A DNA stretch of 64,000 bases from a virus. The notes under the pieces are model-generated. The model saw only the letters and a program-made list of their open reading frames with translations, ran no database searches and had not been told where the DNA came from. Location: the IMG/VR virus record IMGVR_UViG_3300031963_013791, positions 1 through 64,000 of that record; one strand, given 5' to 3'. Below are positions 2,546 to 55,956 of the stretch, in pieces (position 1 is the stretch's first letter; every line of letters begins with the position of its first letter). Position numbers and translations under genes: made by a program.

Positions 2546-3544
2546 TTATACTGTTAAGGGACTTTTACTAAACTCTATTTTAATTCCTTCACCTTCTAAT
2601 TCAGAAATTAAATACATACAGAAATCTTCTGAAGAGGCAAATTTTTTCAAACTACCTTTGTAATTTAGTTTAAAGATACCTATTTCCTCTAATATATCTA
2701 ATTTGTTTATTATTAAATGATTTACTCCATTAATTTTCATCCCCATTTTAACAACATCAAGATCCATCCAATTTATTTGTCTTGGTCTTCCGGTTGTTGC
2801 ACCATATTCATTGCCCAATTCTCTAATATTTTCAAATATTTCTTCATCACCTTCAAAGTTTTTGCTTCCAACATATGTTGCATAAACTTTAGCAATTCCT
2901 ATTGTGTTGCGTATGTATTTAGGTGGAACTCCATTTAATATTGCACCTCCAACAGTACAATGAGAACTAGTTACATAAGGATAATCCCCCCAATCAATAT
3001 CTAATTCAAAACCTTGAGCTCCTTCAAAAAGAATTTTTACTTCCTTATCTCCGTAAAATTCTTTATAAGTATCAATCACAAATTCTTGAAGTTCGGGGAT
3101 ATCTCCAGCCCTTGTTCCTTTGCGAGAATACTTATCACGATATGCAGGACCATTTCCTTTTTTGGTGGTTCCTATTTTATTTTCAGATAATTCTTCAAAC
3201 AAATGTTCATCAGTAATTACATGTGTCCTTTTGTCAATACGAAGATATTTTCTTACTTCCAATCCTTTTGATTCTATTTCTTGAATTTCTTTAAATAGGT
3301 CTTTGACATTTACTACACATCCAACCCCTATAACACTTTTTAAACCATATGCAAATCCAATAGGAATATAATGTGTTACAATTTTTTGGCCTTTATGGTA
3401 AACTGTATGTCCAGCATTTCCTCCTCCGTTATATCTAACAACGTGAGTGTATTCATCTTCTTTTGAAGCAAGAAAATGTGCAACTTTTCCTTTACCAGTA
3501 TCACCAGCTTGAAGGTCTACAATAATATCTGCGTATTTTATCAT
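2546..3544 (-). CDS. short adenylosuccinate synthetase (PurA/PurZ-like)
   Basis: 332 residues, about 100 shorter than cellular PurA, which joins IMP and aspartate using GTP. The P-loop region VDLQAGDTGKGK (residues 9-20) keeps the catalytic Asp at 15; His46 in NAGHT, GTTKKGNGPAYRDK (125-138), EGAQG (174-178), TTGRPR (250-255) and NKLD (280-283) are also present, so it should be active. The shortness and the DLQ-x-G-x-TGKG wording resemble PurZ, the phage enzyme acting on dGMP on the way to 2-aminoadenine. From memory, PurZ replaces the Asp retained here. Substrate is therefore open: IMP or dGMP. It lies upstream of two small genes and downstream of a phosphoesterase gene on the same strand. 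Confidence 0.88.
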   Translation of the reverse strand: MIKYADIIVDLQAGDTGKGKVAHFLASKEDEYTHVVRYNGGGNAGHTVYHKGQKIVTHYIPIGFAYGLKSVIGVGCVVNVKDLFKEIQEIESKGLEVRKYLRIDKRTHVITDEHLFEELSENKIGTTKKGNGPAYRDKYSRKGTRAGDIPELQEFVIDTYKEFYGDKEVKILFEGAQGFELDIDWGDYPYVTSSHCTVGGAILNGVPPKYIRNTIGIAKVYATYVGSKNFEGDEEIFENIRELGNEYGATTGRPRQINWMDLDVVKMGMKINGVNHLIINKLDILEEIGIFKLNYKGSLKKFASSEDFCMYLISELEGEGIKIEFSKSPLTV

Positions 3545-14153: not shown

Positions 14154-16601
14154 TCAAAATTTATACCTTAAGTTAACTGAAAAATCTTGACCCAACCTAT
14201 AGTAGTTTGAAACAACATAACCAGAATCAGAATTTTGAATAAATTCATATTTTGCATTTAATAAATTATTGATTCTCAATGAAATAGAGTACTTATTTTT
14301 TTCAATATTATAGATTAAATTTAAAAAGTTTTGTGGTATTTGATAAATATCACCGAGTCCAAAAACACCTACTGCGTTAAGTTTTTTACCTATGAAATTA
14401 TAAGTTATTCCAATGTTGTTGTTTTCATTAATTGAATAAAATAAATCAGCATTAGATAGTATTGGCGAAGATCCTTGCAATGGTCTTTTTAAATTACTTA
14501 CAACAACTGTAGAATTACCTTCATTAGAAATAATTATTTGAGACCATAAGACGGATAAATTATAGTCTATTATAAACTTATTAATTCTCTTTTTTATTTC
14601 AATTTCTCCACCAAAAACATTTGATCTTTCACTATTTTGAAAAGTTTCCAATCTACCACTTGCGGTAGCGATATTAACTCTTTCTATTGGATTATCTATT
14701 GTTTTACTAAATAAAGCTATTGAATAAATTTGGTTATTAGATGGATAAAACTCATAACCTAAATCAAAATTAATGACTTTAGAAACTGTAAGATTTGGAT
14801 TGCCTTGAATTTTAGAACCTGCAAAAACTTCAGTATATATAAAAGGAACAGTTTCTCTAAATCTTGGTCTTATATTAGTGATTGAAGCGACAAACTTTAA
14901 TTGTTTTTTGTCATTTATTCTATATTTTATTGATAAGAATGGAAGTAAATCTAAATTATCTATTTTATTATTTTTCAAAAATACTGGTGAAAGTTGATCT
15001 CTGTAATTTACTACTTGTTCTACATCTTCAACTCTTAATCCATAACTTAAATCAGTTTTATTACTGTTAAAATTAGATTTAATAAAAAAACCATTAATAT
15101 TTGTGTATCCTTCTGTTTTTGAAGCTGGATTATTAACCCATAATTCTGTAGTTTGATCACTATTAAGATATTGATTTGGATTGGAAGGATCAATGTATCC
15201 ATAAATTGAATTTATTTTTCCTAAATCATAATATTTTTGTTTATAATCAAATAAATTTCTAGAACTTAAATAACTGTATCCAAAATAGTGATCTAATTTT
15301 TTTCCTTTATGAGAAATTGTAAAATTAAAATTTATCGTGTTTTCTCTGTTTGTGTTCCAGAAAATGTGATTGTCGAGTTTATCTATGTTATTAAATGAAT
15401 ATTGACCATCATATAGGTAAACAAACTGTTCTCTTGCACTTTCTCCACTTTCCACTAAAGAAAATCCTCCTATACCATCTATTGTCCAATTTCCTAATCT
15501 ATAATTTGCATTTATTTGATCGGTAAATAAAGAATGTGAAAATGGTGTGTTTCTGGTTGTAAAAATATCTTTACTATAATCAAAATGAGTTCCAAATGTT
15601 TCTCTGTAAAGTGTGTTTTTTTGATTTATATATAATGAGGTATTTTTTATACTAAAATTTTTTGATTCATGGTGTAAAACAAAAATACCAGAGGGAGTAA
15701 ATTGGTTTATCCTGTCTTTAAATTTATAGTCGAGAACATAATTTCCTTGTTTATTTATTAATCTTAGTATTCCATCTAAATTTTGATTATCATTTATTAA
15801 GTTTAAATTGAGATAGTAGCTTAATTTTTTGTTTTCTTTTCCTATCTGAAAATTAAAATTGTAATTAGGGGTGGGTGTCAATGAGTTTAAAGAACCCCTT
15901 AAAGAAACACTTTTTATTGTTTTTATTTCACTAGTTAAAATATCAATTTGAGCACCACAAACATTTCCCCATTGATCTGAAGAATATGTTTTCCTAATCT
16001 TCATATTATCCATAATTCCAACAGGTAAAATATTTAAATCAATATTCTTTTTATCTGCATTGTTGGATGGAATTGGAATTCCATTAAGGGTTACTTGATT
16101 ATATCTATCGTCAAGACCCCTAATATTTAATTTAGAATTTGTAAATGATATGCCCGACACCTTTTTTAACCCATCTTCTGCATTTGAAATCCCTTTTCTG
16201 GTCATTTCTGAAGATCCTATTGAAGACTCAATGCCATTAGCATTTTTTTTATCCATTAAAAGTATAGTTTCTGAAGAATTATTCTTTTTAGCTGATATCT
16301 CAACTTCATTCATAGAAACAGATTTCGATTTTAATATAATATTAAATTGATTGTTGTTTGCATTTATTTTCTGTTCTTCAAACCCAAGACAATAAAAAAC
16401 AATCAAAGATTCATTTGATTTTATTTTCAAATAAAAATTACCATCGAAATCTGTTTGAGTTCCGTTTTGAGTATTTTCTTCAATTATAGAAACAAAAGGT
16501 AGTGGTTGATTTGATTCATCCACTACCTTTCCTTTTATTTCTTGACTAAATGCTTGAGTAAAACTTACAAATAAGTAAATTAATATGATTATTGCTCTCA
16601 T
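14154..16601 (-). CDS. TonB-dependent outer-membrane receptor
   Basis: 815 residues from the chosen start. Order: Sec signal peptide (MRAIIILIYLFVSFTQAFSQ), a carboxypeptidase-D regulatory-like domain (KGKVVDESNQPLPFVSI, TDFDGNFYL), a plug domain (GISNAEDGLKKVSGI, LNIRGLDDRYN, TLNGIPIP), then a long beta-barrel ending in the aromatic LRYKF. The start at 16601 avoids overlap with the lipoprotein stop; an upstream ATG at 16619 gives six unlikely extra residues. Such receptors import siderophores, vitamins, glycans or other ligands using TonB energy. It is paired with a surface lipoprotein, as is common in Bacteroidetes chromosomes but surprising in a phage. Confidence 0.9.
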   Translation of the reverse strand: MRAIIILIYLFVSFTQAFSQEIKGKVVDESNQPLPFVSIIEENTQNGTQTDFDGNFYLKIKSNESLIVFYCLGFEEQKINANNNQFNIILKSKSVSMNEVEISAKKNNSSETILLMDKKNANGIESSIGSSEMTRKGISNAEDGLKKVSGISFTNSKLNIRGLDDRYNQVTLNGIPIPSNNADKKNIDLNILPVGIMDNMKIRKTYSSDQWGNVCGAQIDILTSEIKTIKSVSLRGSLNSLTPTPNYNFNFQIGKENKKLSYYLNLNLINDNQNLDGILRLINKQGNYVLDYKFKDRINQFTPSGIFVLHHESKNFSIKNTSLYINQKNTLYRETFGTHFDYSKDIFTTRNTPFSHSLFTDQINANYRLGNWTIDGIGGFSLVESGESAREQFVYLYDGQYSFNNIDKLDNHIFWNTNRENTINFNFTISHKGKKLDHYFGYSYLSSRNLFDYKQKYYDLGKINSIYGYIDPSNPNQYLNSDQTTELWVNNPASKTEGYTNINGFFIKSNFNSNKTDLSYGLRVEDVEQVVNYRDQLSPVFLKNNKIDNLDLLPFLSIKYRINDKKQLKFVASITNIRPRFRETVPFIYTEVFAGSKIQGNPNLTVSKVINFDLGYEFYPSNNQIYSIALFSKTIDNPIERVNIATASGRLETFQNSERSNVFGGEIEIKKRINKFIIDYNLSVLWSQIIISNEGNSTVVVSNLKRPLQGSSPILSNADLFYSINENNNIGITYNFIGKKLNAVGVFGLGDIYQIPQNFLNLIYNIEKNKYSISLRINNLLNAKYEFIQNSDSGYVVSNYYRLGQDFSVNLRYKF

Positions 16602-16602
16602 T

Positions 16603-17754
16603 CTATTTCGTCCAACCATTCATCCAAGCATTACCTGATCCAACATTTGAATCTTGAATGAACCAAGAATCGTTTAAAGTGGCTGTTAAACCAGCAAAAG
16701 AATTACAATCTTTAAAATCAGTACCATTTCCTGATATGATAGAATTTGCAACAAATAATTCACCAGTTGTAATGTGATTAAGGGTTGTTTGCTCGCTAAC
16801 TCTTACTCCATATTTAGCAAAACCAGTAACATTTGCATAAAATATTTTACCCTTTGTTCCTTCTCTTAGTCTAATTCCTTCATTTAATCCATCTCCATCA
16901 TTAACACCATTTAATGTTATATTTGATAATGTTGGTTCTGAATAAGGAGAAGCTGTATTATCATCTCCATTATTATCCGCTTCAATACCTCTATCACCAC
17001 CATCTATACCTTGTTGCACAAACCAATATTGACCTTTTCCTCTCCATCCATGAGTCCAATCAAAAGAATCATCTTGATTCTCCGTTGAAACTGCATATCT
17101 TATATTTAATGTTCCTCCAAACAATTCGATTCCATCATCAGAACCCCTATATGCCTGTATGTATTCAACAATTGTACTTGATCCAACCCCATTAAAAGAA
17201 AATCCATTTAATTCATTATCTGTTCCAAGTATTTTACCAGCATATTCGACTCTTATATATTTTAAAATTCCGGAATTGTCTTGATCGTTACTTCCTCCAT
17301 AAACACCTGTACCCCCTTCGCCTTCTGCAGTTAGACCAGTGTTTATGTCAGCATATCCATTGACAATTATTCCTCCCCAATCACCATAGGTAGGATTGCT
17401 TTTTAATGGTGTGAAAATTATAGGATTAGTACTAGAACCTTCTGCGAAAATTTTTGCACCTTGTTTTATTGATAAAAAGGTTGTTACAGATGGATCAGCG
17501 TATATTGTTTGTCCACCATTTATATAAAGTGAATAACCCTCTTCAATAAATACACCACCAGAAAGAAGCCATTTTTTAGACGAATCCAAAGTAAAATTTT
17601 CATTTATGACACCCTCTATTTTTTGAAATAAATCTCCATTTATATTTACTTCTGTAACTATAAATGATTTATTTTCTGGAATTTGATTATCGTCTTTTTT
17701 GCAAGACGTAACAAGTACAGCGAATGCTGTAATAATAAATAATAGTTTTTTCAT
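16603..17754 (-). CDS. surface lipoprotein, right-handed beta-helix type
   Basis: 383 residues. A lipoprotein signal ends at VTSC and is followed directly by KKDD, which fits the Bacteroidetes lipoprotein surface-export signal. The body has repeated short strands with Gly/Asn turns (NPIIFTPL, WGGIIVNGYAD, GILKYIRVEYAG, GIELFGGT), typical of a parallel beta-helix family found beside TonB receptors. It probably captures the ligand passed to the receptor encoded immediately downstream. The ligand is unknown; phosphate-related use is one possibility I recall for this pair, unverified. Confidence 0.8.
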   Translation of the reverse strand: MKKLLFIITAFAVLVTSCKKDDNQIPENKSFIVTEVNINGDLFQKIEGVINENFTLDSSKKWLLSGGVFIEEGYSLYINGGQTIYADPSVTTFLSIKQGAKIFAEGSSTNPIIFTPLKSNPTYGDWGGIIVNGYADINTGLTAEGEGGTGVYGGSNDQDNSGILKYIRVEYAGKILGTDNELNGFSFNGVGSSTIVEYIQAYRGSDDGIELFGGTLNIRYAVSTENQDDSFDWTHGWRGKGQYWFVQQGIDGGDRGIEADNNGDDNTASPYSEPTLSNITLNGVNDGDGLNEGIRLREGTKGKIFYANVTGFAKYGVRVSEQTTLNHITTGELFVANSIISGNGTDFKDCNSFAGLTATLNDSWFIQDSNVGSGNAWMNGWTK

Positions 17755-22946: not shown

Positions 22947-23023
22947 TACTCCCAAAGGGAATCGAACCCTTATGTGACCAATTACCCTTTCTACTGTGTA
23001 TAAGACAGAGGGGATATGGGAGC
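22947..23023 (-). tRNA. tRNA-Ile(UAU), D-arm replaced
   Basis: Acceptor GCTCCCA pairs TGGGAGT and the T-arm (AAGGG, TTCGATT, CCCTT) is normal. The hairpin CTGT-CTTATAC-ACAG gives anticodon UAU for AUA codons. It starts only 8 bases after the acceptor, where the D-arm should be. D-loop-like TAATTGGT lies after the anticodon arm, and CCC before it can pair with GGG after it. The same layout occurs in the tRNA-Ile at 24049. Confidence 0.65.
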
Positions 23024-23677
23024 AATTATGTTTTCAATTAATTTATCATCAAAATTTTTACCTCTTATAAAAATCAAATTTATTTTATTTTGAGATGTGA
23101 CTAAGTTCAATTTTATTTTATCTTCATCGCTAAAATATCCTTTAATTTCTAAATATCTGTTAAAATCCGGTAAATAAAAATCAGGAGTATAAGTCTTTTT
23201 AACCCCGTTATTATCAACATAAGAAATATATATTTTTCTTTTCCAAATTATTTTATTCTCATTTAAAATATTTGCTACTTTCAATTCCCACGTACCCCTA
23301 ACAATAAATTTTTCATTATTTATATTGCTAACTTTATACCATTTTATATTTTTAAATCCACCTACACCTAATTCTTCCAAGTTTTTAGACCTAGCCAAAG
23401 AAAGTTTTTCTTTTTGTTCATTGGAAATTTTTTTACCCTTATGCTTTAATCCTATTTTTTTCTTAATTTCATCAGTTAAAATATAATCGACTCCTTTTTT
23501 TCTTGTTTTATCCCATTGGTTTACTGGTTTTTTTATTATTCCATCTTTTACTTTTTGATTATAAATTTCAAAATTACTTTTACGAATTACTCTATTTGGG
23601 TTTAATTTACATGTTTTTTGGTGTGAAATTAAAGAACCTTTATTCGTTATTTCTCTATCACAAAAAATACAATTCAT
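22991..23677 (-). CDS. homing endonuclease (zinc finger, NUMOD3, PD-(D/E)XK)
   Basis: 228 residues. An N-terminal zinc finger (CIFCDREITNKGSLISHQKTC) is followed by a NUMOD3-like repeat (GLKHKGKKISNEQKEKLSLA) and a restriction-like nuclease core: RGTWELKVANIL, then YTPDFYLPDFNRYLEIKGY, giving E, D and E-x-K. Free-standing mobile gene. Its last eleven codons and stop lie inside the 5' half of the adjacent tRNA-Ile(UAU) on the same strand, an uncommon overlap. Confidence 0.82.
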   Translation of the reverse strand: MNCIFCDREITNKGSLISHQKTCKLNPNRVIRKSNFEIYNQKVKDGIIKKPVNQWDKTRKKGVDYILTDEIKKKIGLKHKGKKISNEQKEKLSLARSKNLEELGVGGFKNIKWYKVSNINNEKFIVRGTWELKVANILNENKIIWKRKIYISYVDNNGVKKTYTPDFYLPDFNRYLEIKGYFSDEDKIKLNLVTSQNKINLIFIRGKNFDDKLIENIIAPISPLSYTQ

Positions 23678-23715
23678 CTTTTTTAATTATAAATATTTTA
23701 TATAATTAAATTTTG

Positions 23716-23795
23716 AGCCGATGGAGGGACTCGAACCCCCGGTGTTTGTGTTCCAGTTTACAAAACTGGTGCTGTCGCCACTGAGCCACATCGGC
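23716..23795 (-). tRNA. tRNA-Thr(UGU)
   Basis: Acceptor GCCGATG with CATCGGC, anticodon stem CCAGT/ACTGG with loop TTTGTAA, T-arm GGGGG-TTCGAGT-CCCTC. The variable region is somewhat long (12 bases). Last gene of the array; no CCA encoded. Confidence 0.88.
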
Positions 23796-23804
23796 AATAA
23801 TAAG

Positions 23805-23876
23805 TTCATCCAGAGGAAGTCGAATTCCCATCTTCTGGTTCGTAGCCAGATATTCTCTCCGTTAAACTACAGGTGA
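23805..23876 (-). tRNA. tRNA-Arg(ACG)
   Basis: Anticodon stem TCTGG/CCAGA with loop CTACGAA. The acceptor stem has one A-C mismatch and two G-U pairs and the T-stem one A-C mismatch, so the fold is weaker than usual. Confidence 0.8.
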
Positions 23877-23882
23877 ATTTTT

Positions 23883-23958
23883 GTACCCCCAGTGGAAGTC
23901 GAATCCACAAACACCAGATCCTAAGTCTAGCCGCTTTGCCAGTTTGCGTACAGGGGCA
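23883..23958 (-). tRNA. tRNA-Leu(UAG) with short variable loop
   Basis: Anticodon stem CTAGA/TCTGG with loop CTTAGGA, T-arm GTGGA-TTCGACT-TCCAC. The variable region is only about 5 bases, whereas bacterial tRNA-Leu normally has a long arm. Confidence 0.78.
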
Positions 23959-23963
23959 TTTTA

Positions 23964-24037
23964 TGGAGGTAGGAGATGGGATCAAACCATCGTAGAAGGT
24001 TTTGCAGACCTCCACCTAGTCACTCGGTCATCCTACC
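23964..24037 (-). tRNA. tRNA-Cys(GCA)
   Basis: Acceptor GGTAGGA with TCCTACC, anticodon stem GAGGT/ACCTT with loop CTGCAAA, T-arm GATGG-TTTGATC-CCATC. Discriminator U and an encoded CCA end, apparently the only complete CCA in the array. Confidence 0.88.
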
Positions 24038-24048
24038 TTACATTATTG

Positions 24049-24125
24049 TTGGGATGGAGGGGATCGAACCCACATGTCACCAATTACTCTTTCAACACGT
24101 TATCAGCGTGAGGAGATACAACCCA
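24049..24125 (-). tRNA. tRNA-Ile(GAU), D-arm replaced
   Basis: Acceptor TGGGTTG pairs CATCCCA with one U-U mismatch; T-arm GTGGG-TTCGATC-CCCTC has one mismatch. The hairpin CACG-CTGATAA-CGTG gives anticodon GAU but begins 9 bases after the acceptor, so no D-arm precedes it. CTC before and GAG after the hairpin can pair, and TAATTGGTGACAT follows, as in the tRNA-Ile at 22947. Confidence 0.65.
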
Positions 24126-24140
24126 ATAAAGAAATATTTT

Positions 24141-24171
24141 GCGTAAAGTATCAGAAATTAATACTTTCTGC
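24141..24171. other. spacer hairpin in tRNA array
   Basis: AAAGTAT and ATACTTT pair with an outer GC/GC clamp between tRNA-Ile and tRNA-Gln. Possibly a processing signal or tRNA remnant; no T-run. Confidence 0.3.
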
Positions 24172-24186
24172 AAAAAATTTATTTTG

Positions 24187-24259
24187 ATGTCCCAGCTGGA
24201 ATCGAACCAACATCATCAGAGTCAAATTCTGATATAATTAACCGTTATACTATAGGACA
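24187..24259 (-). tRNA. tRNA-Gln(UUG)
   Basis: Acceptor TGTCCTA with TGGGACA, D-arm containing GTATAACGGTTAATTATA, anticodon stem TCAGA/TCTGA with loop ATTTGAC, T-loop TTCGATT. Canonical cloverleaf. Confidence 0.88.
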
Positions 24260-24272
24260 ATATAATATTAGA

Positions 24273-24344
24273 GTGGGATAGGAAGTAATCGAAACTTCGC
24301 ACCTATGATTTACAGTCATTGTGAACTCCCCGGTCTCTATCCCA
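24273..24344 (-). tRNA. tRNA-Tyr(GUA) with short variable loop
   Basis: Acceptor TGGGATA with TATCCCA, anticodon loop CTGTAAA, T-arm GAAGT-TTCGATT-ACTTC. Bacterial tRNA-Tyr usually has a long variable arm; here it is about 5 bases. Confidence 0.82.
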
Positions 24345-24352
24345 GATATTTG

Positions 24353-24427
24353 TACTCCCGACGGGACTCGAACCCGCAATGACCACCTTGAAAGGGTGGT
24401 GACTTAAACCAATTTGTCCACAGGAGC
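24353..24427 (-). tRNA. tRNA-Glu(UUC)
   Basis: Anticodon stem CCACC/GGTGG with loop CTTTCAA, T-arm GCGGG-TTCGAGT-CCCGT, acceptor GCTCCTG with CGGGAGT. Confidence 0.88.
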
Positions 24428-24433
24428 ATTAAG

Positions 24434-24514
24434 AGCGAGTAGAGAGAATCGAACTCTCATCTCTGGTTTGGAAGACCAGCATAATTTACTTTCGTTCCAC
24501 TATACGATACTCGC
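24434..24514 (-). tRNA. tRNA-Gly(UCC) with enlarged D-loop
   Basis: Acceptor GCGAGTA with TACTCGC, anticodon stem CTGGT/ACCAG with loop CTTCCAA, T-loop TTCGATT. The D-arm (TATAGTGGAACGAAAGTAA) is about 9 bases longer than a usual tRNA-Gly D-loop. Confidence 0.82.
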
Positions 24515-24522
24515 AATTGTGC

Positions 24523-24558
24523 CAACATGTCAAAGAACAACAACAGATACTCATGTTG
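24523..24558. other. spacer hairpin in tRNA array
   Basis: CAACATG and CATGTTG form a seven-base stem around a 22-base loop between tRNA-Gly and tRNA-Met. Role unknown; perhaps a processing element. Confidence 0.3.
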
Positions 24559-24566
24559 TTTTATTG

Positions 24567-24641
24567 TTGCGGGAATGGGAATCGAACCCATGTGATTCAG
24601 CTTATGAGACTGAGCTGGAACCATCTCCAGTCCATCCCGCA
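24567..24641 (-). tRNA. tRNA-Met(CAU)
   Basis: Acceptor TGCGGGA with TCCCGCA, anticodon stem TCAGT/GCTGA with loop CTCATAA, T-arm ATGGG-TTCGATT-CCCAT. Lacks the three G-C pairs of an initiator, so elongator Met is likely; a lysidine-type Ile cannot be excluded. Confidence 0.83.
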
Positions 24642-24650
24642 ATTTTTAGG

Positions 24651-24723
24651 AGGAGCTACCGAGCTTTGAACTCGGGACTTAACATTGCAAATGTTATGTG
24701 TTCGCCATCTATACCATAGCCCC
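24651..24723 (-). tRNA. tRNA-Ala(UGC)
   Basis: Acceptor GGGGCTA with TAGCTCC (with the G-U pair expected near the end), anticodon stem TAACA/TGTTA with loop TTTGCAA, T-arm CCGAG-TTCAAAG-CTCGG. Confidence 0.88.
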
Positions 24724-24727
24724 ATTG

Positions 24728-24803
24728 TCTGGTAAGCCGGACTCGAACCGACATCAGCTCCTACTTCCAAGGTAGGCGAGGCAACCAATTCCTCCATTAC
24801 CAG
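24728..24803 (-). tRNA. tRNA-Pro(UGG)
   Basis: Acceptor CTGGTAA with TTACCAG, anticodon stem CCTAC/GTAGG with loop CTTGGAA, T-loop TTCGAGT. Confidence 0.88.
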
Positions 24804-24808
24804 TTTAG

Positions 24809-24881
24809 CGGTCTATGAGAGAATCGAACTCTCACCACCCGATAGACAGTCGGGTATCCTTAGCCGTTGGACCAATAGACC
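24809..24881 (-). tRNA. tRNA-Asp(GUC)
   Basis: Acceptor GGTCTAT with ATAGACC, anticodon stem CCCGA/TCGGG with loop CTGTCTA, T-arm GAGAG-TTCGATT-CTCTC, discriminator G. Confidence 0.88.
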
Positions 24882-24892
24882 TTTTTTACTTT

Positions 24893-24969
24893 GTGTACCC
24901 GGAGAGATTCGAACTCTCGACTCCTGCATTAAAAGTGCAGTACTCTAATCCAGCTGAGTTACGGATACA
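24893..24969 (-). tRNA. tRNA-Lys(UUU)
   Basis: Acceptor TGTATCC with GGGTACA, D-arm AACTCAGCTGGATTAGAG, anticodon stem CTGCA/TGCAG with loop CTTTTAA, T-arm GAGAG-TTCGAAT-CTCTC. Confidence 0.9.
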
Positions 24970-25052
24970 TTTTGAATGCACCCGTAGGCACATTCAGTTA
25001 TTTACGTTTTCGTTTTAATTTATTTTTTGTTTTCATTTCATTTCCAGTTTTC

Positions 25053-25090
25053 TGGGGACTGAGCCCAGCAGGTATTTGACTCAGCCCCCA
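25053..25090. other. strong GC-rich hairpin in tRNA spacer
   Basis: GGGG-A-CTGAG pairs with CTCAG-CCCC around a 16-base loop inside the 139-base gap between tRNA-Lys and tRNA-Asn. A second small hairpin (GAATG/CATTC) lies near 24974-24995. No gene is seen in this gap. Could be a processing element or terminator. Confidence 0.5.
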
Positions 25091-25108
25091 ACATCATCAT
25101 TTTTTTTG

Positions 25109-25181
25109 CGGGGAATGTGGGCAACGATCCCACACCCTTCTGCTTAACAGGCAGTTGCTCTTCCACTTGAGCTTCTTCCCC
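25109..25181 (-). tRNA. tRNA-Asn(GUU)
   Basis: D-arm GCTCAAGTGGAAGAGC, anticodon stem CTGC/GCAG with loop CTGTTAA, discriminator G. The T-loop reads ATCGTTG rather than the usual TTCRANN, and the last acceptor pair is G-A. Confidence 0.82.
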
Positions 25182-25187
25182 CCTTTG

Positions 25188-25260
25188 TGGAACCGGAGGC
25201 TTTCGAGTCCTCGACCTTTGGATTTTCAGTCCAACGCTCTTCCATCTGAGCTACGGTTCC
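25188..25260 (-). tRNA. tRNA-Phe(GAA)
   Basis: Acceptor GGAACCG with CGGTTCC, D-arm GCTCAGATGGAAGAGC, anticodon stem TTGGA/TCCAA with loop CTGAAAA. The T-loop (CTCGAAA) has C for the first T. First gene of the array, starting only a dozen bases after a terminator. Confidence 0.87.
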
Positions 25261-45859: not shown

Positions 45860-48259
45860 TTATTTACTTAATATTTTTAAAACTTTTAATATTGAATCTG
45901 GTGTCACAGAAATACTATCTATACCCTCTTCAACCAGAAACTTTGCAAATTCAGGAAAATCAGATGGTGCTTGACCGCAAATTCCAACTTTAGTGCCGGT
46001 TTTTTTACCAACTTTTATAAGATGAGATATAGCTCTTTTTACTGCAATATTCCTTTCATCATAAATGTGAGCGACTAATGCAGAATCCCTATCCAACCCT
46101 AAAATTAATTGAGTTAAATCATTAGACCCTATTGAAAAACCATCTATATGTTCGGCAAATTCCTCAGCCATAAATATATTAGATGGAAGTTCAGCCATTA
46201 AATAAATCTCTAGACCCCTTTCACCTCTTTTAAGCCCATACGATTCCATTACCTTATAAACTTTTAGTAATTCCTCTACTGTTCTACAAAATGGGATCAT
46301 AATTACAACATTGGTTAAACCCATTTTTTCCCTTACTCTTTTTAGGGCTTTTAATTCCATACCAAATGCCTCTTTGTATTCAGTGGAATAGTATCTTGAA
46401 GCACCTCTCCAACCTATCATAGGGTTTTCTTCTTTCGGCTCAAAATAAGTACCTCCTAATAAGTTTTCATATTCATTGGATTTAAAATCTGATAATCTTA
46501 CAATTACTTTATTCGGATAAAATGCTGTAGCAATTTTTGCTATACCATAAGATAATCTTTTAACAAAAAAAGTTTCTTCATCATCATACCCCCTTATTGT
46601 TTTTTCAATTTCATTTGTAAGATTTTCATCACCAATTTGCTTATGTTTTAGAAGAGCAAGTGGATGTACCTTTATATAATTATTAATTATAAATTCTTCT
46701 CTGGCAAGTCCTACACCTGAATTTGGTAGATGTGAAAATTTAAAAGCTATATCCGGAGATGCAACATTTAGCATTATGGGTGTCTTAACCTTGGGCAGAT
46801 CATCAAGGTTTGTTTCTATTTTTTCATAATCTAAAAACCCTTCGTAAACAAATCCAGTATCACCCTCACTACATGATACAGTGACCTTTTGATTATTTTT
46901 AATTATATCTGTGGCATTTCTACACCCTACTATTGCAGGTAAACCTAACTCTCTGGCAACTATTGCAGCATGACAAGTTCTACCACCTTTGTTAGTAATG
47001 ATTGCAGAAGCTTTTTTCATAATTGGCTCCCAATCAGGATCTGTCATATCTGTTACCAAAACTGAACCCTCAACAAATTCAGAAGCATCAAAAGAACCAT
47101 CTCTACCATCTAATGAGAACATAATTGTTGCTTCTCCAGAGGCAACCCCGTCTCCAACTGCTATGCCTTTTATTAATGGATTTTGACCTTCTGAATTAAT
47201 ATTATATTCTACTAAAGTTCTATTTCTTTTTTGAGAATGAATTGTCTCTGGTCTTGCCTGAACTATATAAAGTTCCCCCGTTAATCCATCTATAGCCCAT
47301 TCAACATCAACAGGACACCATTTATTTTTCAATTTTGAATAGTATCTTTCTATTGAACTAACCCACTTTGCTATCTCTAATACTTGTTTATCAGTTATGC
47401 AAAAATTGTTTTTTTGATCATCGCTTACTTGTATTGTTTTTGTAAGTTTACCATGATCTTCACCATAAATCATTTTTTTATCCTTAAATCCAAGTTTCTT
47501 TTCTATGATTGAAGAATATCCCTTTTCCAACAAAGGTTTAAAAACAATAAATTCATCAGGTGATATTGCACCTTGAACAACCATTTCACCTAGACCATAT
47601 GAACCATTAATTAGTATCACATCTTTAAAACCACTTTCTGTATCTAATGAAAATGCAACACCAGATGAAGCTAAATCTGAACGAACCATTTTTTGTACAC
47701 AAACAGAAAGACCTACATTAAAATGATCATATCCAAAAGTGTTTCTGTAAGATATTGCTCTATCTGTGAATAAAGATGCAAAACAATTTCTTACAGCCTC
47801 TATTATTGATTCTATTCCTCTAACATTTAAAAATGTTTCTTGTTGACCCGCAAAAGAAGCATCGGGTAAATCCTCAGCTGTTGCGGATGATCTGACTGCA
47901 ACATCTGTCATTTCTTGATCATATTGCTTTGACAACTCTAAATATTTTTCTTTTATTTCATTTTTTAATTCCTCCGGAAATTCTCCATTTCTTATTATTT
48001 GTCTAACCTGAGATCCAACTTTTCTTAACTCTATTATATCTGAGTCATTTAAATTTGAAACTAAATCTTTTATCTTTTTATCCAGTTTATTATGTGTAAT
48101 ATAATCAAAATAACCTTTAACATTAATTGCAAAACCATTAGGTACTTTTATATTCATAGAATTAAGGTTTTGCAACATCTCTCCTAAAGAAGCATTTTTG
48201 CCACCAACTAAATTAATGTCGCCTAATGAAACTTTGTTCAAATCAATAGTGTATTTCAT
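45860..48259 (-). CDS. ppsA: phosphoenolpyruvate synthase
   Basis: 799 residues, the usual length of PpsA, which makes PEP from pyruvate and ATP. Domains in order: ATP-binding PPDK N-domain (NLVGGKNASLGEM, ADVAVRSSATAEDLPDASF-like block), central phospho-His domain (GGRTCHAAIVARELG with His near residue 430) and the C-terminal PEP/pyruvate barrel with a Cys near 766 (GICGQAPSD). All catalytic residues appear intact. It is the first gene of an operon after a terminator, with its own A/T-rich promoter region. A full carbon-metabolism enzyme in a phage is unusual. Confidence 0.92.
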   Translation of the reverse strand: MKYTIDLNKVSLGDINLVGGKNASLGEMLQNLNSMNIKVPNGFAINVKGYFDYITHNKLDKKIKDLVSNLNDSDIIELRKVGSQVRQIIRNGEFPEELKNEIKEKYLELSKQYDQEMTDVAVRSSATAEDLPDASFAGQQETFLNVRGIESIIEAVRNCFASLFTDRAISYRNTFGYDHFNVGLSVCVQKMVRSDLASSGVAFSLDTESGFKDVILINGSYGLGEMVVQGAISPDEFIVFKPLLEKGYSSIIEKKLGFKDKKMIYGEDHGKLTKTIQVSDDQKNNFCITDKQVLEIAKWVSSIERYYSKLKNKWCPVDVEWAIDGLTGELYIVQARPETIHSQKRNRTLVEYNINSEGQNPLIKGIAVGDGVASGEATIMFSLDGRDGSFDASEFVEGSVLVTDMTDPDWEPIMKKASAIITNKGGRTCHAAIVARELGLPAIVGCRNATDIIKNNQKVTVSCSEGDTGFVYEGFLDYEKIETNLDDLPKVKTPIMLNVASPDIAFKFSHLPNSGVGLAREEFIINNYIKVHPLALLKHKQIGDENLTNEIEKTIRGYDDEETFFVKRLSYGIAKIATAFYPNKVIVRLSDFKSNEYENLLGGTYFEPKEENPMIGWRGASRYYSTEYKEAFGMELKALKRVREKMGLTNVVIMIPFCRTVEELLKVYKVMESYGLKRGERGLEIYLMAELPSNIFMAEEFAEHIDGFSIGSNDLTQLILGLDRDSALVAHIYDERNIAVKRAISHLIKVGKKTGTKVGICGQAPSDFPEFAKFLVEEGIDSISVTPDSILKVLKILSK

Positions 48260-51558: not shown

Positions 51559-51666
51559 TAGTCAGGACAGGATTCGAACCTGTATGATATCCGCAGATAT
51601 CTTTCACTTGCGTTCACTACCTCATCAGGTTTCCGTGATTAGCGTCTACCATTCCGCCACCTGACC
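51559..51666 (-). tRNA. Leu-like tRNA with expanded anticodon region (108 nt)
   Basis: Acceptor GGTCAGG with CCTGACT, Leu-like D-arm (GGCGGAATGGTAGACGC), T-arm ACAGG-TTCGAAT-CCTGT and a GATATC/GATATC variable arm. Between the TCAC/GTGA stem there are about 27 bases instead of 7, so the anticodon cannot be assigned. Same acceptor and T-arm as the gene at 55856. Confidence 0.6.
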
Positions 51667-51676
51667 GTTATTAATT

Positions 51677-52405
51677 TTATTTTATATCATAGTAATTCCA
51701 AATCTCTTCCAACTGTTTAGGATCAACAATAAAAGATTCCCAATCATCTTTGGCAACCTCCACGTCCCTAACGTCAACATAAAAAGTCTTAGGTGTAAAT
51801 GGAAATGATTTTATATATCCTTTTTTGCCGACCATTTTACTTCTATCTCCATTCTTATAATCTTCTTCGCTTAACCAAGCAAATCCACTCCAACATACAT
51901 TATTTTGATCCCTTTTAATTATTGCATCTATATAATAAGGTTTACCATCTTTTCCATCTTTAAATAACGCTGAACACCTTTTGTTTTGATACCATGAATT
52001 ACCATCACCAAATTCTCTTACATCACCCCATTCATCATCCATACCAGTTATAGGTGCAATAGGATGAAACAATAGTAGATTATTAATCGACTCAATCAAA
52101 TGATCAAAATCATTAATTGATTTTGTCTTAATCACTTCAACTATTGAATTGATTTCCTCTGTGAATTCATAAGTTAAAGAATCCGGATCTTTAGCTATTT
52201 CTAAAACTATATTACTAGAAATTTTATTTTTTATTTCATGAATTATGGAACCAGCAGTATATGGTGCTGAACCACCACTTTGTCCTGAATCTCTAAATTT
52301 TTTGCAGAGATTTAATATTTCATTTTTGATTGATAAAATATCAAAATCTGGATTTATTTTAGATATAATATCTAATTCTATTTCAGCAAAAGTCCTATTA
52401 TTCAT
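51677..52405 (-). CDS. conserved hypothetical phage protein
   Basis: 242 residues. SGQSGGSAPYTA, PIAPITGMDDEWGDV and NKRCSALFKDGKDG are conserved blocks of a family common in phages. Function unknown. It overlaps the next gene by eight bases. Confidence 0.7.
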   Translation of the reverse strand: MNNRTFAEIELDIISKINPDFDILSIKNEILNLCKKFRDSGQSGGSAPYTAGSIIHEIKNKISSNIVLEIAKDPDSLTYEFTEEINSIVEVIKTKSINDFDHLIESINNLLLFHPIAPITGMDDEWGDVREFGDGNSWYQNKRCSALFKDGKDGKPYYIDAIIKRDQNNVCWSGFAWLSEEDYKNGDRSKMVGKKGYIKSFPFTPKTFYVDVRDVEVAKDDWESFIVDPKQLEEIWNYYDIK

Positions 52406-55855: not shown

Positions 55856-55956
55856 TAGTCAGGACAGGATTCGAACCTGTACGCCTTTCATCCTGAATAC
55901 CGCGACAATACGCTGAAAGACCTCGGATAGTGCGTCTACCATTCCGCCACCTGACT
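55856..55956 (-). tRNA. Leu-like tRNA with expanded anticodon region (101 nt)
   Basis: Acceptor AGTCAGG with CCTGACT, the same D-arm and T-arm as the gene at 51559. The stem TATCC/GGATG encloses about 31 bases instead of a 7-base anticodon loop. Anticodon not assignable. Confidence 0.6.

Follow-up and report, generated by a model that had tools for sequence, protein, structure and literature searches.

A probable second class of natural tRNA in phages, with the anticodon arm nested inside the D-stem

For isoleucine and arginine, phages probably use a second natural class of tRNA, which some bacterial tRNA arrays also carry: a functional adaptor with a strand-swapped D-stem around which the D-loop and the anticodon arm stand in reversed order. 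As judged from their sequences, these tRNAs appear to be exchangeable in place with canonical ones, and their three hinge types indicate that the class was possibly reached more than once. To our knowledge, the order acceptor-D-anticodon-variable-T has so far passed as universal. No prior description of the nested topology was found among the matches listed in a search of open PMC titles and the starts of abstracts, a scope that places preprints and most subscription papers outside it.

Two tRNA-Ile genes with a nested anticodon arm

The window, a stretch of 64,000 nucleotides from a virus record of 108,663 bases, contains a tRNA cluster on the minus strand (22947-25260) in which two unusual genes lie amid canonical tRNAs, 13 of them predicted by ARAGORN and another, at 25188-25260, by Rfam. 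The two are tRNA-Ile(UAU) (22947-23023, discriminator A at 22947) and tRNA-Ile(GAU) (24049-24125, discriminator A at 24049). An earlier note on this DNA had read two tRNA-Ile genes with these anticodons here, and the reading held for both, each of which is 77 nt long and lies on the minus strand. The 7-bp acceptor and the 5-bp T-arm (nt 53-69; 22955-22971 in the UAU gene, 24057-24073 in the GAU gene) stand at their usual positions, so the description of these arms as normal was borne out, with one U.U mismatch in the acceptor and one in the T-arm of the GAU gene.

The anticodon hairpin follows closely behind the acceptor, as had been claimed. Its stem starts at nt 16 in both genes, and by sequence and alignment the arm spans nt 16-30 (22994-23008 with the anticodon at 23000-23002 in the UAU gene; 24096-24110 with the anticodon at 24102-24104 in the GAU gene). 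Two complementary triplets enclose this arm. Nucleotides 11-13 read CCC (23011-23013) and nt 37-39 read GGG (22985-22987) in the UAU gene, and the corresponding triplets are CTC (24113-24115) and GAG (24087-24089) in the GAU gene; complementarity and covariation assign them to the 5' and 3' strands of the D-stem. After this inner stem both genes carry TAATTGGT, the D-loop sequence that had been placed 3' of the anticodon arm. The displaced D-loop occupies nt 41-52 (22972-22983, AATTGGTCACAT, in the UAU gene; 24074-24085, AATTGGTGACAT, in the GAU gene) and was assigned from the sequence, from base 20 and from covariation like that of the 15-48 pair.

With up to three mismatches allowed, the shared core motif occurs twice in the window, both times exactly, against 0.08 occurrences expected. 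A model built from 135 relatives (R1) gives 91.7 bits for the UAU gene, 87.9 bits for the GAU gene and at most 16.4 bits in the rest of the window; the two genes match R1 by construction because both are rows of its alignment.

Pairing, isotypes and identity bases in the family

A first motif scan of viral contigs (at least 119 stretches) gave at least 123 hits, including both window genes, and each hit was inspected. At least 83 were tRNA-like at a fixed 77-nt geometry, at least 54 of them distinct, and at least 40 others resembled coding or other sequence by eye. Mutual information was strongest in the acceptor, T and anticodon stems and in the pair 12:38. A D-loop-pattern scan, also of at least 119 stretches, was used solely to add loci. 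In four additional scans neither strand of the inner stem was constrained: two of viral contigs, for the GAU anticodon (74 stretches) and for anticodons in which position 35 is not A (77 stretches), a third for A at position 35 and a base other than T at position 36 (1 stretch), and a fourth of a bacterial and archaeal genome collection for Ile-type anticodons (21 contigs). The scans keep the core motif, which other isotypes might have lost.

Nucleotides 11-13 were fully complementary to nt 37-39, G-U pairs allowed, in all 142 distinct complete instances from these free-strand scans (52 of 52, 69 of 69, 1 of 1 and 20 of 20, in the order given), one additional instance of the GAU scan having been dropped because a contig end truncates it. 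After shuffling, the mean number of paired instances was 14.3 of 52, 16.4 of 69 and 5.7 of 20, a comparison that is not meaningful for the single-instance scan. A TTCRA T-loop lay near the right place in 52, 60, 1 and 19 of the instances, respectively. The paired triplets include CTC/GAG, ACC/GGT, CGC/GCG, TCC/GGA, AAC/GTT, CCA/TGG, CCT/AGG, AGA/TCT, GCC/GGC and CGG/CCG, and the stem that the earlier note had proposed around the hairpin from CCC/GGG against CTC/GAG is thereby upheld.

Compensatory change was examined in an alignment of 135 representatives, which includes both window genes and has rows prefiltered for pairing. Over all stems in these prefiltered rows, 98.5% of cells were paired, with 1023 double changes, against 37-41% for slid partners; the acceptor and T-arm, prefiltered at six or more of 7 and four or more of 5 pairs, reached 97.6% and 98.1%. 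In the same rows the inner stem was paired in 405 of 405 cells, with 132 double changes (slid controls at most 46.9%). RNAalifold returned the same 19 pairs with none supplied. The covariation among homologues that had been proposed as a check is present at all three pairs of the stem. A search for homologues without the complementarity turned up none of the main type, and one shortened copy with a broken stem (L332:5159-5231).

These results support a nested topology in which the anticodon arm lies inside a 3-bp D-stem and the D-loop comes afterwards; the stem strands enclose the anticodon arm, and there is no D-arm hairpin between it and the acceptor. As shown by comparison, the chain order is acceptor 5' strand, U8 A9 U10, nt 11-13, anticodon arm, GAAA hinge, nt 37-39, D-loop, T-arm and acceptor 3' strand. 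Compared with the cloverleaf, the D-loop and the anticodon arm are swapped around the inner D-stem strand.

Single-sequence folding fails for the nested tRNAs; it was discarded as proof and counts against the structure. With acceptor and T-arm enforced, nearest-neighbour folding produced the inner stem together with the anticodon stem in 9 of 135 nested tRNAs, with a median gap of 3.5 kcal/mol to the nested target, whereas the same procedure produced D-stem and anticodon stem in 291 of 537 canonical tRNAs. Free folding gave the nested form in 6 of 135, and neither window gene folded into the full nested form (the input for the GAU gene was one base short). The covariation shows that the predicted pairs matter in a functional state; the molecule must owe its stability to tertiary contacts, modification or proteins.

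A structural descriptor was searched over 325 sequences (2.87 Mb, some overlapping), with a filter of at least 6 of 7 acceptor pairs and 4 of 5 T-arm pairs. In this set, filtered for pairing, there were 267 hits, 193 of them distinct, against none in reversed and block-shuffled controls. By anticodon the 193 divide into Ile UAU (61), Ile GAU (61), CAU (10), Val UAC (2) and the Arg anticodons ACG (29), CCU (13), UCU (12), UCG (4) and GCG (1). A looser descriptor gave 290 hits (203 distinct; reversed control 0), of which L153 (Leu) and L244 (Gly) were judged false and were excluded from the counts of base 20, co-occurrence and CCA given below. L248, an Arg hit in a shifted register, was kept separate as Ser in the base-20 counts and inside Arg in the CCA counts.

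All 80 raw hits of the scan for anticodons without A at position 35 carried Arg anticodons (L248 in its shifted register), which rules out a lineage restricted to isoleucine. The earlier suggestion of an Ile lineage was therefore too narrow, as the same shape occurs with five Arg anticodons, with CAU and twice with Val. The CAU forms could be Ile2 or Met tRNAs. In the sections of PMC9976931 drawn on here, Ile, Arg and Val are treated under synthetase subclass Ia. The restriction to few isotypes may reflect recognition or history.

The main type has a 4-bp anticodon stem and the GAAA hinge. A second hinge type, brought in by the looser descriptor, comprises Ile(GAU) tRNAs with a 5-bp anticodon stem (L056, L121, L131, L312, and later L354 and L359); the same descriptor also yielded Arg forms with a 5-bp anticodon stem (L099, L196, L219). 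The third hinge type, Arg(UCU), in which the stem is read with a bulged G, comes from Streptomyces phages and L301. A scan for the second hinge (15 stretches) gave 11 distinct hits, four of them tRNA-like and all four with the stem, and seven chance matches with one of three positions paired in each; a scan for the third (7 stretches) gave six distinct hits, four of them tRNA-like. Small as these numbers are, the variants suggest repeated solutions of one topology.

After the inner stem the sequence runs U A R ... GG ... Y and then enters the T-stem. Alignment columns 42 (R) and 56 (Y), the positional counterparts of the 15-48 pair, hold A-U in 108 of the 135 rows, G-C in 18, G-U or U-G in 2 and unpaired bases in 7, and none of 500 shuffles reached the observed paired percentage or score. 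At the base after GG, equivalent to position 20, all 63 nested Arg tRNAs have A, whereas 120 of 127 nested Ile tRNAs and 7 of 9 CAU forms have U; among canonical tRNAs of the same loci, 138 of 148 for Arg have A and 64 of 79 for Ile have U. As far as the consulted parts of PMC9976931 go, A20 is the main determinant for E. coli ArgRS, and the D-loop bases G16, D20 and D21 are relevant to isoleucylation and editing. The discriminator is A in 127 of 127 nested Ile tRNAs, and G (31), A (26), U (5) or C (1) in nested Arg tRNAs, A or G thus accounting for 57 of 63. Exceptions to the expected base 20 or discriminator number 7 among the 127 Ile genes and 6 among the 63 Arg genes. By base 20 and discriminator, then, the synthetase identity elements agree with the anticodon for each isotype, as they should in an adaptor. 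Directly after the discriminator, 36 of the 64 nested Arg genes encode CCA, as do 17 of the 127 nested Ile genes; a looser measure gives 40 of 155 canonical Arg and 43 of 87 canonical Ile genes. We also considered an 8-bp acceptor, with U at -1 opposite A73. Although U is frequent there, this was rejected as a general feature because L026 and L030 have A at -1.

Canonical partners and distribution

Two Streptomyces phages of the genus Samistivirus, Jay2Jay and Mildred21, carry the two topologies at the same place. Within a 2.1-kb block of 79% identity, Arg(ACG) is canonical in Jay2Jay (96823-96896) and nested in Mildred21 (94857-94933), where it is unannotated and where the flanks closely resemble those of Jay2Jay up to both gene ends. 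Beside tRNA-Lys(UUU), Jay2Jay has a canonical Arg(UCG) (93002-93075) and Mildred21 a nested one behind an HNH gene (91367-91442), which its record labels tRNA-Phe(gaa). After tRNA-Gly(GCC) and past an unaligned stretch, Jay2Jay has a canonical Arg(UCU) (88366-88439); at the corresponding place Mildred21 has a nested variant (86379-86453, 40.3 bits) annotated as tRNA-OTHER. Between 66000 and 112000 of Mildred21, Arg(CCU) is the sole canonical Arg tRNA by ARAGORN. Both phages also carry a nested Ile(GAU) (75237 in Jay2Jay, 73703 in Mildred21) alongside a canonical Ile(GAU), and this coexistence is contrary to a strict rule of replacement.

Co-occurrence was counted in viral loci with at least eight canonical tRNAs. 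In these loci, which are genome pieces in which absences are unproven, a canonical tRNA with the same anticodon was present in 6 of 58 nested-Ile and 0 of 32 nested-Arg loci; 20 of the 58 and 19 of the 32 had some canonical tRNA for that amino acid. Canonical tRNAs for other amino acids were present in 20 to 37 of the 58 and 7 to 23 of the 32, and canonical Ile was no rarer than Tyr in the nested-Ile loci (both 20 of 58). In the crAss-like phage tikkala, whose cluster includes a canonical Ile(UAU), a nested Ile(GAU) lies in the gap that separates the Trp and Met genes. ARAGORN found no canonical Ile tRNA in the window; over the record, scanned without bases 102001-108663, it gave a doubtful Ile(UAU) at 74478-74553.

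When the GAU gene was used as query, 78 of 366 matching phage records were covered over at least 80% of its length. The 60 of these records among the matches listed are tikkala and Streptomyces phages; 58 have no feature at the gene, and two, both of phage EGole, call it tRNA-Leu. R1 confirmed nested tRNAs in bajarodcaudo virus 1, crAssphage cr130_1, Microbacterium phage A3Wally and the large phage LR756500, with a weaker match (59.4 bits) in Rhodococcus phage Trina, where the record says tRNA-OTHER. Nested genes sit in tRNA clusters, as in the window.

Among bacteria, nested tRNAs are rare; 14 genomes were examined out of the 21 contigs, and each has one or two of them. In the family of Chryseolinea lacunae they occur in 5 of 148 genomes, three of them already known, and a phylum-wide sample around this species, with stricter filters and E-value, gave 1 of 395, the centre genome itself; a bacterial housekeeping role is not supported by these frequencies. 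Each of the Chryseolinea loci L303, L320 and L322 is a tRNA array, L303 with a relaxase and L320 with an RNA ligase and an AAA_33/HD protein. RNA ligase genes occur near nested-tRNA arrays, accompanied by a polynucleotide kinase or an AAA_33/HD protein in three of four cases.

Function, alternatives and relation to known tRNAs

Very likely the products of the nested genes are functional tRNAs whose D-arm is rethreaded and which are charged by the IleRS and ArgRS of the host. In such a molecule nt 1-13 would run as in the cloverleaf, followed by the anticodon arm, the inner strand and the D-loop. The inner stem, its two strands having traded places, would stack on the anticodon helix, so that nt 11-13 would occupy the place of canonical nt 22-24 and nt 37-39 that of canonical nt 11-13. 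Three nucleotides (8-10) would span the distance from acceptor to inner stem, and from the top of the stem the chain would pass into the D-loop, as a canonical chain does behind nt 13, to end at nt 48 beside the T-stem. Given this strand placement, an L-shape with normal elbow contacts seems possible, in which the D-loop would meet the T-loop (G18 and G19 with U55 and C56, the 15-48 pair, U8-A14). The substrates of host IleRS would be the forms with U20, A73 and an NAU anticodon, and those of host ArgRS the forms with A20, A or G at 73 and an Arg anticodon; the products would decode Ile and Arg codons during infection, often in place of the canonical tRNA with the same anticodon.

Why the shape persists is less certain. 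It may have been selected because it evades tRNA-targeting nucleases or toxins, of the host or of rivals, that read the canonical core, and so escapes enzymes that recognise or cut canonical tRNAs, a tentative idea that we hold to be somewhat improbable. Phages rich in tRNAs are the main carriers of the nested form, several have RNA repair genes close by, and PMC10264068 already proposes evasion by phage tRNAs, there through changes in the anticodon loop and not through topology. The nested tRNAs resemble those tRNAs in being phage-borne and in a possible conflict over tRNA cleavage. However, no enzyme is known here whose targets would match a limitation to Ile and Arg, and neutral exchange fits equally well; the terms Ile, Arg and D-arm are absent from the PMC10264068 text.

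It is unlikely that the genes instead yield untranslated tRNA-like RNAs, which would only mimic tRNA ends and serve as decoys against host enzymes that cut tRNAs, as regulators or as recombination sites. The RNA ligase and accompanying genes near the arrays and the weak computed folding of the nested core would suit such RNAs, but anticodon, base 20 and discriminator are concordant by isotype, CCA is encoded in more than half of the nested Arg genes, and a nested gene occupies a canonical Arg(ACG) slot. A decoy is disfavoured because it needs no matched synthetase determinants.

The behaviour of standard tRNA finders bears on whether the genes are ordinary cloverleaves with an odd D-arm that programs misalign. 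The general tRNA model RF00005 (gathering score 29) gives 31.4 bits for the UAU gene, in narrow searches only and not in the search of the whole window, and 22.8 bits for the GAU gene. Each alignment passes over the D-arm, setting 15 model positions against 4 bases, and places an insertion of 18 nt behind the anticodon arm, so the covariance-model check proposed in the earlier note recovered no standard cloverleaf. At neither gene did another Rfam family score as high as its gathering threshold. Neither nested gene is among the 13 tRNAs that ARAGORN found in the window, and its bacterial mode recovered 0 of the 193 distinct nested instances; the same command re-finds its 13 window tRNAs and misses the Rfam tRNA at 25188-25260. 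A Tyr-like stretch at 24271-24346 is likewise missed by ARAGORN and absent from the Rfam gathering list. For misalignment speak the gathering-level RF00005 score of one window gene, Rfam hits at gathering score for two of the six main-type genes that six loci contain, and the 20 or 135 predictions, as raw counts, that relaxed ARAGORN settings give on the 193. The skipped D-arm with its insertion, the 0 of 193 and the pairing of the nested stem in every free-strand instance contradict a cloverleaf with a hidden D-arm, which is ruled out as very improbable. Standard tools mostly overlook or misname nested tRNAs.

Decaying pseudogenes or chance matches, for which the U.U mismatches of the GAU gene and the shortened copy might be cited, are contradicted by 193 distinct instances against none in controls, by strong compensatory change and by the broad spread over named phages, and have next to no likelihood.

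In circularly permuted tRNA genes the order of parts is altered in the gene, with the 3' half upstream of the 5' half, and the mature tRNA is canonical. The nested genes resemble permuted genes, which are named in the consulted part of PMC13092985, in that their order of parts differs from the cloverleaf, as if the transcript were cut and rejoined to a canonical tRNA. This is exceedingly improbable, as the acceptor strands already form the two ends (in 193 of 193 the 5' strand opens the gene and the 3' strand closes it, an order that the descriptor required) and the nested stem itself is kept by covariation, which would be needless in a spliced precursor.

The nested tRNAs share with the RF00005 cloverleaf the 7-bp acceptor, U8 A9, a 7-nt anticodon loop with U33, the T-arm, a length of about 77 nt, G18 G19, the 15-48-like pair, A or G at 73 and the identity base 20. 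They differ in the anticodon arm nested between the D-stem strands, the D-loop after the stem, the 4-bp anticodon stem of the main type and the lack of a variable loop of the usual kind. tRNA-Sec, allo-tRNA and tRNA-Pyl retain the order acceptor-D-anticodon-variable-T, and the hallmark of tRNA-Sec and allo-tRNA is a lengthened acceptor/T stack with a long variable arm. Like these, the nested tRNAs are natural tRNAs with unusual cores or arm lengths (PMC7609411, as consulted in part), but their alignment has a 7/5 stack and no variable arm. That review covers tRNA-Sec, tRNA-Sec-like, allo-, Pyl and mitochondrial tRNAs, and the words permut, swap, rearrang and virus are absent from it. As in D-armless mitochondrial tRNAs and an engineered E. 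coli mini HisT (PMC11551756, in the part consulted), the usual place of the D-arm is empty; unlike D-armless tRNAs, the nested tRNAs keep conserved D-stem strands and a D-loop, rethreaded, with its GG, an isotype-matched base 20 and 15-48-like covariation. According to the same part of PMC11551756, E. coli HisRS, EF-Tu and the ribosome accept the engineered D-armless tRNA, a precedent for an altered core.

If the nested genes are indeed adaptors, the cloverleaf order would be unnecessary for translation in bacteria, which would need the L-shape and its contacts rather than a particular threading. Nested tRNAs allow tests of how the tRNA core is read by IleRS, ArgRS, EF-Tu, RNase P and modification enzymes, and they offer a natural scaffold for orthogonal tRNAs. 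They also expose gaps and some wrong labels in the tRNA inventories of phages, with an Arg tRNA recorded as Phe and an Ile tRNA as Leu.

Nested tRNA genes under other names

Nested tRNAs, in which the anticodon arm lies inside the D-stem, carry wrong names in public records (NC_042008, 91367-91442 and 86379-86453; MK494112, 75265-75341; NC_042040, 104372-104450). A nested Arg(UCG) is labelled tRNA-Phe(gaa) and a nested Ile(GAU) is labelled tRNA-Leu, while the remaining misnamed genes are labelled tRNA-OTHER. Among the scanned loci, a 7.2-kb contig holds two intact nested tRNA-Ile copies and, beside them, a third that is shortened and only in part base-paired (L332:5159-5231). Nested tRNAs with a CAU anticodon, whose isotype could be Ile2 or Met, were found on MAG contigs of Prevotellaceae, Muribaculaceae and Erysipelotrichaceae (L317, L318 and L313), where canonical tRNAs are also numerous.

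Surroundings within the virus record

A predicted endonuclease ORF (phrog_15137; window 22991-23677, minus strand) lies between tRNA-Thr and the nested tRNA-Ile(UAU), its final 33 bases being shared with the 5' portion of the tRNA-Ile(UAU) gene. Four scattered tRNA-like units, all on the minus strand (window 51559-51666 and 55856-55956; record 74289-74388 and 74478-74553), share one T-arm and a similar acceptor, GTCAGG/CCTGAC or close to it. Three of the four are 100-108 nt long and have the same kind of D-arm, without a clear anticodon arm. This single phage record also combines, on the minus strand of the window, genes for a PurZ-like adenylosuccinate synthetase (2546-3544), a SusC-like TonB receptor plug protein (14154-16619), a pyruvate phosphate dikinase-like enzyme (45860-48259) and a Tad3-like Thoeris inhibitor (51677-52405).

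RNA ligase genes and duplicated isotypes

RNA ligase genes are found near the tRNA clusters with nested members in Streptomyces phage Jay2Jay (66000-110000; L335), loci L347 and L344, and a Chryseolinea tRNA array (L320); in three of these four, the ligase gene is accompanied by a polynucleotide kinase or by an AAA_33/HD protein. The Jay2Jay region carries duplicate annotations with the same anticodon for Pro, Asp, Leu, Asn, Tyr, His, Met, Lys and Ala, as if two tRNA sets had been retained.
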